From: a virus
IMG/VR virus record: IMGVR_UViG_3300017963_000855
Location: 1 to 20,262 of that record
Strand: one strand, 5' to 3'
Length of the DNA: 20,262 bases
The first letter of the stretch is position 1; every line of letters begins with the position of its first letter. Shown here one piece after another: positions 12,994-18,805 of the stretch. The notes beneath the pieces were generated by a model that saw only the letters and a list, made by a program, of their open reading frames with translations, had not been told where the DNA came from and ran no database searches. Both the position numbers and the translations under genes were made by a program.

Positions 12994-13609
12994 TTTTTCA
13001 CCCGCCTTTTCTTTCTGGCCTTGTGATCACCCCGGGCAACCATTTCTTTGTATAGCCTTTCTTTTTCTTCAATCTCCGTATCGTGTTCCAACTCGAAAAT
13101 TTCCAATTGCAGACTATTCATGTTTTGCTGGATGTCTTTTTGCTTCATATTCGGCAAAAGCGTTGCCTTATAGAGTTCTAGCCTTCTTGCTAGCGCTTTT
13201 AAGCGCGCTTCTTTTAGCCAGAATTCCTGGTCTCTTACATCGAGCGTTAAAAGCTCTCGAAATCGAAATAAACCTGGAAACTCACTAGCAATTATTGCGA
13301 ATCTTTGTCCCCAGGTTTTGATTCGTTTTTTTCTTCTTGTCCTATTTTGGAAGCATTCTCCATAATGAATGCCGTAATTTTGTTGACAAGAGAAATATCA
13401 AGCTCGGAAACAACGGCCATGCATTCGTCACCAAGAAGCAATTCCAACAACTTATAGCCAGCCTCAACGCTTCCGGTTTCGATTTCTTTTTGGAGCTGCT
13501 CTATCTCCTGGAAGATGTTCCGCGTCAATCGTTTTGATTCGTAGACCTTCCCGTCAATTTCGATTTCAATGGGCCTAAACAGACTCGTATCAATCTTTAG
13601 CCTGGGCAT
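12990..13609 (-). CDS. Tail assembly chaperone G-T fusion made by -1 frameshift
   Basis: Translation of G residues 1-95, followed by a slip of one base back at 13325-13331, opens a second frame of 111 codons that runs from 13325 to the TGA at 12990-12992 without interruption. The predicted product is 206 residues. The extension begins RIKTWGQRFAIIASEFPGLF and continues as charged helices (ARLKALARRLELY; NSLQLEIFELEHD) to a very basic end, KARKKRRVKK. In lambda and most long-tailed phages, G and G-T made at a fixed ratio coat the tape measure and recruit tube subunits. Without the shift, about 300 bases here would be non-coding, which this compact operon has nowhere else in its tail module. 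The TGA overlaps the tape measure ATG. The frameshift is inferred from sequence only. Confidence 0.85.
13292..13609 (-). CDS. Tail assembly chaperone G (unshifted product)
   Basis: 105 residues between the tail tube and tape measure genes, the fixed position of the G chaperone. It has a beta-rich start (FRPIEIEIDGKVYESKRL) followed by helices (NIFQEIEQLQKEIE; YKLLELLLGDECMAV; LVNKITAFIMENA) and a hydrophilic end that contains the slippery site. This helical phage-chaperone shape and length are usual for the family, although primary sequence is poorly conserved. The start at 13609 is 11 bases after the tail tube stop, with GGGAG just upstream. Confidence 0.82.
   Translation of the reverse strand: MPRLKIDTSLFRPIEIEIDGKVYESKRLTRNIFQEIEQLQKEIETGSVEAGYKLLELLLGDECMAVVSELDISLVNKITAFIMENASKIGQEEKNESKPGDKDSQ
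13298..13331 (-). promoter_or_regulatory. -1 ribosomal frameshift signal (A AAA AAC)
   Basis: On the - strand the heptamer A AAA AAC (13331-13325) is in the correct phase for a -1 slip (GAA|AAA|AAC in the G frame). A 6-bp inverted repeat CGAATC/GATTCG (13325-13320 and 13303-13298, loop of 16) starts at the slip site and might act as a stimulator. It is closer to the site than usual and weak, so only the heptamer is well supported. Confidence 0.82.
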
Positions 13610-13620
13610 GTCTCCCTACC

Positions 13621-14178
13621 TTAGATACCGAATTCAGATGAGCCAGACGGCATGCCGAGTGTCCCGAATTCGCCCTCGTATCCCGACTCCTGAGAAACGA
13701 ATACCTTGAACTTGATGGGAAAAACGCGCTGGGTATCGGGAGTGTAGGACAAATCGAATGCCGGGATGGGATAGCACTTATAAAGCTCTATCCATTCAGC
13801 CGGATCGTCAGAAACCTCATTTCCGCACAGGGGTTTGATCACGAGAGCCTTTGCCAGGTCATACATAGAGCAGCCGATCTGGTTGAGGAGCTTGATATAG
13901 CTGTGATCGCCGGATGAGACAACCCCGCCAGCCAGCAAGACTTCATTCAACTGAGTCAGCGTTGAGCGGGTCATCATAACTTCAAGCTCCATCGTGGAAC
14001 CGCCAAAGGCGGCATCAACCGCAGCATCCCCGGCCTGGTCTTCCTTAATGTCGTGAACAGTGGTGTCCATCCGCAGGGTGACCCCGCCGAGAGTCGGGCC
14101 GAGATTCAGCGCTCCGCTTTCACCGTAACCCCAAACAACCTCACACGGACCTAAATCACCAATGGGTAGATTAGGCAT
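13621..14178 (-). CDS. Major tail (tube) protein
   Basis: 185 residues, probably the subunit that stacks in rings to form the tail tube. The assignment rests on position, directly before the G/G-T chaperones and tape measure, and on a beta-rich sequence with tube-like features: an N-terminal CEVVWGYGESGALNLGPTLG, then VTLRMDTTVHDIKEDQAG, and strands such as STMELEVMMTRSTLTQLNEV and FPIKFKVFVSQE. Length is normal for siphovirus tube subunits. It is the only gene in the tail module preceded by a true intergenic gap. Its Shine-Dalgarno site is very strong (AGGAGG at 14190-14185, 6 bases before the ATG), as expected for a protein needed in hundreds of copies, but that site can be hidden in an RNA stem. 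No sheath gene follows, which supports a non-contractile tail. Confidence 0.8.
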   Translation of the reverse strand: MPNLPIGDLGPCEVVWGYGESGALNLGPTLGGVTLRMDTTVHDIKEDQAGDAAVDAAFGGSTMELEVMMTRSTLTQLNEVLLAGGVVSSGDHSYIKLLNQIGCSMYDLAKALVIKPLCGNEVSDDPAEWIELYKCYPIPAFDLSYTPDTQRVFPIKFKVFVSQESGYEGEFGTLGMPSGSSEFGI

Positions 14179-14262
14179 TTAGAACCTCCTAAAAAATGTG
14201 TTGTTTAGGAGGGTAGGGTGGGCTACAATAAAAACGGCCTTCGGAGACCTTTGGAGCGTCAC
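14179..14262 (-). CDS. Possible 27-codon leader ORF before the tail tube gene
   Basis: A GTG at 14262 lies 4 bases after AGGAGG (14272-14267); the preceding GTG at 14265 is an alternative. The frame stays open for 27 codons and stops at TAA (14181-14179), directly against the tail tube ATG at 14178. It starts MTLQRSPKAVFIVAHPTLL and ends FFRRF. Ribosomes on it would pass through both the terminator-like hairpin and the anti-Shine-Dalgarno element. This may be a regulatory leader peptide, the remnant of a gene, or chance; no family is recognisable. Confidence 0.3.
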   Translation of the reverse strand: MTLQRSPKAVFIVAHPTLLNNTFFRRF

Positions 14263-14275
14263 CACACCTCCTAAA
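14185..14275 (-). promoter_or_regulatory. Candidate two-state RNA switch controlling the tail tube ribosome site
   Basis: Read on the - strand there are three matching elements: TTTAGGAGG (14275-14267), CCTCCTAAA (14212-14204) and TTTAGGAGG (14193-14185). The third contains the tail tube Shine-Dalgarno. The middle element is the exact 9-base complement of both flanks, so pairing it with the third (loop of 10) hides the ribosome site, while pairing it with the first (loop of 54) frees it. The inverted repeats are seen directly; that they work as a switch is inference. Confidence 0.55.
14230..14249 (-). terminator. Terminator-like hairpin upstream of the tail tube gene
   Basis: On the - strand GGTCT-CCGA-AGGCC (14249-14236) can form a 5-bp stem with one G-U pair, followed by GTTTTT (14235-14230). 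The stem is short, so termination would be partial. It sits inside the loop of the alternative pairing described for 14185-14275. Confidence 0.4.
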
Positions 14276-14289
14276 TCTGAGGGCTTTAA

Positions 14290-14312
14290 GGGAGGGGATT
14301 ACGGCCCCTCCC
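14290..14312 (-). other. Strong G/C hairpin after the tail terminator gene
   Basis: GGGAGGGG (14290-14297) and CCCCTCCC (14305-14312) form a perfect 8-bp stem with a 7-base loop. On the - strand it is followed by TTAAAG, not a T run. It may protect the end of the upstream message or act as a processing or pausing site, separating the low-copy neck genes from the high-copy tube gene. Confidence 0.6.
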
Positions 14313-14326
14313 GTTACCCTATATAG

Positions 14327-14737
14327 CTAACCTGTACAGGTTGCTTCCTCCACGCGAAAAACAAAATTACAGGTGAACAGATGTCGCCTGTTGTCATCCC
14401 TGCCTAAATAGGCGGGTAAACCTATCGCCTCAACGGTCATGGCTAGATAGTCCGGCCCTGACTCCAAATTGGGCATATTCCAGCCTGACGTGCCGTGTAA
14501 GGCATTAAATACCGCCCAGGCATCATCCCTAGCCTGAAAATATGTTTCGGCCCTAGAAAGCGCCTGGATATTGAAAAACGCGAAATCGGGAGAATAAAAG
14601 TCCGTAGACCCCCCCGCAGACTCGGAAATAAGCACACATCGCTTAGGCTTATCCTGCTCCCAATGTCCCGCCTGGAGACGGGTGCCGATGGTAAAGCCTG
14701 TTAAATTGCTGATGAGCGTCACAATTTCCCTAAACAT
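14327..14737 (-). CDS. Tail terminator / minor capsid-type protein
   Basis: 136 residues immediately upstream of the tail tube gene, the usual place of the protein that caps the finished tail and joins it to the head. It begins with FREIVTLISNLTGFTIGTRL, then has a beta core (KRCVLISESAGG, FFNIQALSRAETYFQARDDA) and ends LFTCNFVFRVEEATCTG. The pattern of helix, strands and a helix with AETYFQARDDAWAVFNAL fits phage tail terminators of the lambda U / minor capsid 3 type. It overlaps the upstream gene by one base (TAATG). The stop codon lies inside a 14-bp palindrome, AACCTGTACAGGTT (14329-14342). Confidence 0.72.
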   Translation of the reverse strand: MFREIVTLISNLTGFTIGTRLQAGHWEQDKPKRCVLISESAGGSTDFYSPDFAFFNIQALSRAETYFQARDDAWAVFNALHGTSGWNMPNLESGPDYLAMTVEAIGLPAYLGRDDNRRHLFTCNFVFRVEEATCTG

Positions 14738-16780: not shown

Positions 16781-18226
16781 TTAACCTCCCATTCTTAATT
16801 TGCCGGGTCGTTTTTTCATGCCCGGACCCGAATGACTTAATTTTGTTATTTTTCTTGGCCCCCGACGCTTTGATGCCCAGAATTCGGAATCGATATATTC
16901 CTTGATCGTTGACAGCAAAACATTGTCGGAGTAAAGAGCGTGTAAAACATCACTGACGGTTAATATGTGTGCCTGGTTTAACGCCGGGGAATCAGATGCT
17001 AATTGATGATTAGCCTCATTAACAGTCAATAAATGAAGCTGTGATAAAACCACGCTATCAACAGAATGACTGTGTCCCGCCTCTTGAACTATAAGAGTAA
17101 CCCCGCCCCCGCCATAAACCAAGACGATATTATCTACAGAATGAGAATGAGAAATGTCATTGACTGATAAGACGTGAACCTGCGATAAATTCAGTGAGTC
17201 GACTTGATGGGCATGGGAAATCTCGCTGATTATCAGGTTATGAAGCTGGGTCAATATGGGTTCATCAAGAGAGTGATTGTGCTGAATATCAGAAACCACA
17301 AGGACATGGGCCTGAGTCAAATTTATCGAATCGACCTGATGAGAATGGGCAGCCTCGCTTACCACTAAATAAACCGACACATCAAGAACAGGCTCATCGG
17401 CAGAATGATTATGTAGGCATTCACTGATAACAAGATTGTGAAGCTGTGTTAAATTTGGGCTATCGGCAGTATGGGCGTGATTTATTTCAGAGATTATAAG
17501 ATTATGAAGTTGCGTTAATAAGGGGGAATCTACAGCATGCGCATGGTCAATAGCGGCCACAACCAAATTATGAAGCTGGGATAAGGTCGGCTCATCAACT
17601 GATTGTGCATGAGAACATTCAGAAACCGATAGCGTTATATGTTCTATCAAATTCGGCTCATCCGCAGAATGGGCATGAGATATCTCTGCAACCGAAAGAT
17701 TGTGAAGTTGTGTTAACAACGGAGAATCAACAGATTGCGCGTGAGAACACTCGGAAACAGTAAGGGTAACCGCCCCAGCATCGGGGGTCTCAAATCTTAT
17801 CCATGAAACATAAACATAAGCATTTCCCGCGCCTGAGGCCGCAACGCGAACGCTCAGGTTATCATAGCTTACAATGTTTCCCGCTTCACCCTCTGAAAGA
17901 TTTATCGTATATTCGGCAAATGAACTCGTGACCGATATTCCTGTATTTGAGGCCCTAAGACTTGCCCCCTCGTATAGATATATGTCTATGGTCGAGCCCT
18001 TATTATTATCACTTGCCCTTACCCTAACCACATGTCCCGTATGATCTCCGGGATCGGAAATTGTATTGCCGAGAGTTACCTCAAAAGTATCTGCTGTCGG
18101 ATTTTTCCCCGATGTGATATAATCCCCATCAGAATAAGGCTCTTCATCAATGTACCCATAGAGTGGAGTGCTGGTCCAACTTCCGGTTGAAATATCAGGG
18201 CTTACAGGATAGGCGTATTGTGTCAT
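16781..18226 (-). CDS. Repeat-built fibre-like structural protein with HxH motifs
   Basis: 481 residues in three parts. Residues 1-154 form a beta-sandwich-like domain (TADTFEVTLGN, GHVVRVRASDNNKGSTIDIY, FAEYTINLSE, AYVYVSWIRFE) like capping or glycan-binding domains of phage structural proteins. Residues 155-443 are thirteen tandem 22-residue repeats. The last 38 residues are strongly basic (SKRRGPRKITKL and KKRPGKLRMGG). Each repeat runs L-x-V, an acidic residue, His-x-His, Asp, then L-x-Q-x-H. Nine of thirteen keep a perfect HxH, the motif by which the trimeric T4 tail fibre tip binds iron. A fibrous trimer on the head or neck is likely. Its gene lies between head-decoration-like and adaptor genes, away from the tail tip, so a head or neck fibre is more likely than a tail fibre. 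The start at 18226 has only a weak ribosome site. Confidence 0.75.
   Translation of the reverse strand: MTQYAYPVSPDISTGSWTSTPLYGYIDEEPYSDGDYITSGKNPTADTFEVTLGNTISDPGDHTGHVVRVRASDNNKGSTIDIYLYEGASLRASNTGISVTSSFAEYTINLSEGEAGNIVSYDNLSVRVAASGAGNAYVYVSWIRFETPDAGAVTLTVSECSHAQSVDSPLLTQLHNLSVAEISHAHSADEPNLIEHITLSVSECSHAQSVDEPTLSQLHNLVVAAIDHAHAVDSPLLTQLHNLIISEINHAHTADSPNLTQLHNLVISECLHNHSADEPVLDVSVYLVVSEAAHSHQVDSINLTQAHVLVVSDIQHNHSLDEPILTQLHNLIISEISHAHQVDSLNLSQVHVLSVNDISHSHSVDNIVLVYGGGGVTLIVQEAGHSHSVDSVVLSQLHLLTVNEANHQLASDSPALNQAHILTVSDVLHALYSDNVLLSTIKEYIDSEFWASKRRGPRKITKLSHSGPGMKKRPGKLRMGG
16898..17764 (-). repeat. Thirteen tandem 66-bp (22-codon) coding repeats
   Basis: The protein period is exactly 22 residues, apart from a 3-residue GGGG-containing insertion in repeat 10. 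At DNA level the units have diverged, but pieces such as TTATGAAGCTG recur every 66 bases. The His at unit position 8 is present in all 13 units; the second His of HxH (position 10) is replaced by Gln in units 1 and 3 and by Leu in units 12 and 13. Confidence 0.92.
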
Positions 18227-18649: not shown

Positions 18650-18794
18650 CTTTTTTCTCCTTCAATTTTGTTTCAATATGCTTGAAAAAATCATCGATGT
18701 TTATGATCCCCTTTTGAACATCTAGGATCACGTCGTTGACTGGTCGCCGCATTGATTTTTCAAGCAACCTTCGTTTTTTTTCTGCCAGATTCAT
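18627..18794 (-). CDS. 55-residue charged protein, unknown function
   Basis: A short ORF starting at ATG 18794 with GGAGG 5 bases upstream, a very good ribosome site. It begins MNLAEKKRRLLEKSMRRP, continues VNDVILDVQKGIINIDDFF, and ends in a lysine-rich tail that stops at TGA 18627-18629. It follows the methyltransferase stop by 11 bases and overlaps the next gene by 23 bases, whose ribosome site it encodes. Together they fill what would otherwise be a 150-base gap. It is predicted to be helical, without a membrane segment. No family is recognised; a small scaffold or assembly helper is possible. Confidence 0.68.
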   Translation of the reverse strand: MNLAEKKRRLLEKSMRRPVNDVILDVQKGIINIDDFFKHIETKLKEKKDGKKMSQ

Positions 18795-18805
18795 CGTTGC
18801 CTCCG

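Follow-up and report, generated by a model that had tools for sequence, protein, structure and literature searches.

In a stretch of viral DNA of 20,262 nt from an IMG/VR record (the window), the probable tail tube gene is preceded by a block in which a Shine–Dalgarno (SD) sequence, a short open reading frame (ORF), an anti-SD sequence and a second SD, that of the tail tube gene itself, follow one another. Judged by its sequence, this block appears to be a real, conserved RNA element, and since its anatomy is retained in four divergent lineages, it has the look of a genuine translation switch. The reading that we prefer, with a probability of roughly 0.52, is a cis-acting switch of translational coupling through a leader ORF: a bicistronic leader equipped with an erm-like anti-SD toggle.

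The block lies between two tail genes, all on the minus strand. The downstream gene (13621..14178) encodes 185 amino acids; its predicted model (mean pLDDT 74) matched phage tail tube and major tail proteins in Foldseek (E 4e-6 to 1e-3), and the gene order is terminator, tube, chaperone, tape measure. Predicted fold and gene order together identify it as the tail tube gene. The upstream gene (14327..14737) is the tail terminator (Pfam PF12691, E 6e-10). Past a 105-aa ORF and before the tape measure gene, a gap (12994-13291, minus strand) contains another open stretch, which may be an extension of the tail-assembly chaperone reached through frameshifting or a separate small gene. Elsewhere on this strand, positions 16781-18226 encode a 481-aa protein with about a dozen SECSHAQSVDSPLLTQLHNL-type repeats, and an apparent gap at 18650-18805, between a methyltransferase gene and a 130-aa ORF, contains a small ORF of ~44 codons with its own SD.

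Three elements form the core of the block, and re-reading the minus strand confirmed each as a perfect 9-mer: element 1 (TTTAGGAGG, 14275-14267), element 2 (CCTCCTAAA, 14212-14204) and element 3 (again TTTAGGAGG, 14193-14185). Element 2, the anti-SD, can pair with either of the others. Element 3 (hereafter SD3) had been recognized in the original prediction as the SD of the tail tube gene, and 6 nt (TTCTAA) indeed separate it from the ATG at 14178. What had been overlooked is that element 1 is itself an SD (SD1), the putative ribosome site of a leader ORF, as suggested by its sequence and by a GTG (14262) 4 nt further on that begins 27 codons (14179..14262, minus strand; VTLQRSPKAVFIVAHPTLLNNTFFRRF, then a stop; an alternative GTG lies at 14265). 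The TAA of this leader (14181-14179) directly abuts the tail tube ATG, so SD3 is embedded in the leader's end; the leader also contains element 2. On the other side of SD1, past the tail-terminator stop, lies hairpin A (14279..14320, minus strand), in which GGGAGGGG (14312-14305) pairs with CCCCTCCC (14297-14290), with a 5-bp outer stem in addition.

The same anatomy of hairpin, SD1, GTG ORF, anti-SD and SD recurs among relatives. About 50 loci were obtained by scanning viral contigs with tail-tube and tail-terminator sequences as queries, and the block is present in about four lineages with five distinct sequences: the window and L002, L014, L015-L017, L022 and L042. In all five, a GTG stands 4-6 nt past SD1, and the frame that it sets stays open until 0-11 nt before the tail tube ATG; the other two frames are interrupted by stops in 5/5, leaving the GTG frame as the only one open throughout. 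Four of the five leaders are exactly 24 codons long despite internal indels and end with a TAG inside SD3. In the window the frame ends in another way; relative to L014 and L015, one T in a T-run differs, and the window frame continues to the TAA. Because an open frame of this length arises in shuffled sequences with a chance of 0.20-0.48 per sequence, the argument depends on the joint recurrence of start, length and stop position. The encoded peptides (VGLRRRILKAFFILAHLSPENQIF in L022, VRWLGRNRKAVLIVAIWPPKTNIF in L042, VTLQSFPKSIFYCSPPHPPKSINF in L014 and VTLQWLPKSIFYCSSPHPPKSTNF in L015, each followed by a stop) are weakly conserved: a motif KA[VF][FL]I[VL]A is present in the window, L022 and L042, the frame is shifted inside L014 and L015, and no stall peptide is common to all five leaders.

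The core idea of the original prediction, that elements 1 and 3 compete for element 2 in mutually exclusive stems, holds up in that each pairing is seen again across four divergent lineages and the two are nearly isoenergetic: in constrained ensembles the two folds differ by at most 2.8 kcal/mol (within 3). Pairing of elements 1 and 2 (1:2) forms if this hairpin is folded alone and pairing of elements 2 and 3 (2:3) in longer contexts, with 2:3 dominating when the window fold includes the downstream start. Compared with shuffles, the 1:2 hairpin region has greater stability in each of the five distinct sequences (z -3.0 to -4.1). The 2:3 match is by itself modestly rare, appearing in 2-14% of lenient, G-U-allowing shuffles per sequence, and its strength lies in recurrence at the homologous place in four lineages. 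Among 81 sites with AGGAGG and a start in the window and the tail-tube loci, complements of at least 8 nt within 100 nt upstream were confined to these blocks: four sites on the sense strand, with four more counts that are those places read from the opposite strand.

Compensatory changes, which had been proposed as a check on the stems, were found on one side of the toggle. The arms of the long 1:2 hairpin (14217..14263, minus strand; GGTG 14263-14260 with CACC 14220-14217, and GCT 14257-14255 with AGC 14224-14222) are counted as part of the element because of compensatory changes in L022 and L042: GGUG/CACC in the window becomes GUGG/CCAC in L022 and AAUG/CAUU in L042. In L022, the core of SD1 pairs through G-U, and G-U pairs in this hairpin would fit a sense RNA. 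The 2:3 stem, by contrast, has no two-sided covariation, one of its sides being a constrained SD; it nevertheless has 9/9 pairs in all five sequences (45/45 cells), in two of them through one-sided changes, and pairing drops to 36-67% when the strands are slid. Part of this agreement could arise because SD1 and SD3 each resemble the consensus. In every lineage, element 2 fits SD3 at least as well as SD1: it pairs over 9 bp with SD3 against 7 with SD1 in L014 and L015, and in L042 it pairs unbroken with SD3 and with one mismatch with SD1 (pairs in L042 were also counted by hand, because MAFFT misaligned its 5′ part).

The distribution of the block is patchy. Most relatives lack it: it was not found in the rest of the about 50 loci, and in the tail-tube tree L022 and L042 are nested within block-free clades. 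The nearest relative of the window, its sister L013 (tail tube 93% identical), lacks precisely the segment that runs from one TTTAGGAGG copy to the next. There hairpin A survives without the rest of the block (L013:2431-2483; window counterpart 14279-14320); with its purine-rich 5′ arm, this hairpin folds with different letters in all block-bearing loci and L013 and is absent in most block-free relatives. We infer from the sequences a secondary loss in L013 through recombination between the direct repeats; the wider patchiness could reflect either loss or transfer. The original prediction had named relatives that keep the tail tube gene and lose the complementarity as evidence against a switch. 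Such relatives exist in so far as the entire block is absent in L013 and in most others, which makes the block dispensable for tail-tube expression in general, whereas wherever the block is present the complementarity is kept.

A covariance model built from L014 and L015 alone (R1) recovers the block at the same place in the window (8e-15), L022 (2e-6) and L042 (0.009). Its ranking places the window, L002, L022 and L042 next, then the partial copy in L013, and anything lower is weak and no better than chance; in the loci searched, R1 detected the block at no other site. A loose match to the core pattern in L011 lies near a terminase-like ORF instead of a tail tube gene, has no R1 match at E <= 1 and is attributed to chance. 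The tail-terminator scan of viral contigs added no further block, the tail-tube protein scan of genome contigs found no relative, pattern-scan matches in genome contigs were unrelated hairpins only, and isolate phages gave no protein or DNA match. Antisense HNH_3/NUMOD3 (homing-endonuclease-like) genes occupy the gap between tail terminator and tail tube in two other relatives (L023:1900-2448 and L047:1873-2418, both minus strand), marking this gap as an insertion hot spot.

These distributional data bear on the main rival, which we consider rather unlikely: that the block is either a structured spacer or insulator with a passive role, or an intergenic cassette that is transferable and was inserted at the tail tube ribosome site. 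The TTTAGGAGG copies would then be direct repeats at its ends, and the SD3 pairing a by-product of a palindrome with an SD-like arm. The patchy presence, with L022 and L042 inside block-free clades, the clean loss between repeats in L013 and the entry of HNH genes into the same gap all suit such an element. A spacer or cassette does not account for the match of element 2 to SD3 being as good as or better than that to SD1 in every lineage, nor for the maintained leader frame with its stop at SD3; the G-U pairs indicate RNA, and the loci searched hold no copy elsewhere.

Quite unlikely, in our estimate, is a two-state RNA that works without leader translation, its stems flipped by a ligand, temperature or a protein, or with SD1 serving as a standby or decoy site and the ORF incidental. 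Such an RNA would be consistent with two conserved, near-isoenergetic stems, with an open frame expected by chance at 0.2-0.5 per sequence and with the weak conservation of the leader peptide, yet it leaves the GTG spacing and the placement of frame relative to stop, kept in all lineages, without a role. Alignment A4 shows no obvious conserved unpaired core fit as a ligand pocket. Nor does Rfam point to a ligand riboswitch: no family matched the block at the gathering score, and weak matches fell far below the cut-offs.

A transcription attenuator, in which an apical hairpin and U-run (14230..14249, minus strand; GGTCTCCGAAGGCC then GTTTTTATT, 14249-14236) would terminate before the tail tube gene under one fold, is very improbable: the terminator-like hairpin noted in the original prediction does exist, and L014, L015 and L022 also have U-runs, but such matches are no commoner than chance (1 found against 1.4 expected from shuffles), L042 lacks the U-run and does not conserve the hairpin, no U-run follows 2:3, and the hairpin is compatible with both folds, which therefore do not control it.

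The preferred reading, coupling through the leader, was examined by laying a rough ribosome footprint on the RNA and computing the folds. With a ribosome at SD1 and up to about codon 12, SD3 is predicted to be mostly closed. From about codon 13, element 2 is covered and SD3 starts to open, only partially (0.1-0.5 accessible), after which it lies directly beneath the terminating ribosome. When SD3 is occupied, SD1 is closed. The model thus supports coupling via the leader, with the two SDs predicted to close reciprocally.

In the proposed switch, SD1 would start a leader of 24-27 codons whose coding sequence holds element 2 and runs into SD3. Element 2 on SD1 would leave SD3 free, and element 2 on SD3 would leave SD1 free. 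A ribosome loading on SD1 would release element 2, which would close SD3; in the later part of the leader, the ribosome would strip element 2 from SD3 and terminate on SD3 or the ATG, and the tail tube start would be reached by reinitiation or by fresh 30S loading. A ribosome on SD3 would free element 2 to close SD1. Tail-tube initiation would be coupled to leader translation; hairpin A would separate it from the low-copy tail-terminator gene, some 150 nt upstream, to which it would not be coupled. An unlikely further reading is a self-alternating ribosome gate, in which the single anti-SD shuttles between the two SDs and meters tail-tube initiations by passages through the 24-codon leader. 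If true, the phage would have a translational device dedicated to metering its most abundant tail protein, and this cassette would spread or be lost via the SD direct repeats.

From a single message, phages need many tail-tube subunits and few copies of the proteins encoded next to them. A leader-ORF switch conserved at the tail-tube junction would show how translation alone can set this ratio, and the window and L013 form a natural presence/absence pair in which this is directly testable. The literature searched, which covers the field incompletely, yielded no described switch before a phage tail tube gene.

The original prediction placed the block in the geometry of riboswitches and attenuators. 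That kinship holds in part: element 1 is the SD of an ORF that terminates at SD3 or the ATG after crossing element 2, which makes a translating ribosome the natural operator and translational attenuators and bicistronic coupling the nearest kin, not ligand riboswitches. Short distances between stop and start favour coupling in synthetic couplers (PMC11602170), and here 0 to 11 nt lie between the end of the stop and the ATG, in or near the reported efficient range. Of the models set out in a review of coupling, RNA unfolding and reinitiation (PMC12548453), either could apply here. In its anatomy the block also fits the definition of a bicistronic design, in which a short first cistron carries the second SD within its 3′ end (PMC5995908): SD1 is followed by a short first cistron, SD3 lies within it (with the stop inside SD3 in the four sequences other than the window) and the stop stands beside the second start (TAA and ATG in the window). 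The leader is longer here, 24-27 codons against the usual under 20. We know of no standard bicistronic leader in which an anti-SD toggles between two SDs. The switch would be a natural counterpart of biotechnology's synthetic bicistronic designs, with an anti-SD toggle added.

Attenuators of the erm type (ermB/ermC; PMC9178857) resemble the block in having alternative stems and a leader peptide that is served by a ribosome site of its own, ahead of a stem that hides the second SD. They differ in that the anti-SD here lies inside the leader ORF, that its alternative partner is the leader's own SD and that no drug is involved; the downstream gene is a phage structural gene. For E. coli atpHA, an intercistronic conformational switch has reportedly been described, to go by the title of Rex et al. 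1994, a paper cited in PMC12548453. As far as that title conveys, the likeness is an intergenic mRNA fold that controls access of initiating ribosomes to a downstream start; the coupling cistron there would be a full gene, in contrast to the dedicated short leader and duplicated SD here. What the block adds to these known systems is a single anti-SD that alternates between the SD of a leader and the SD of the gene that follows it.
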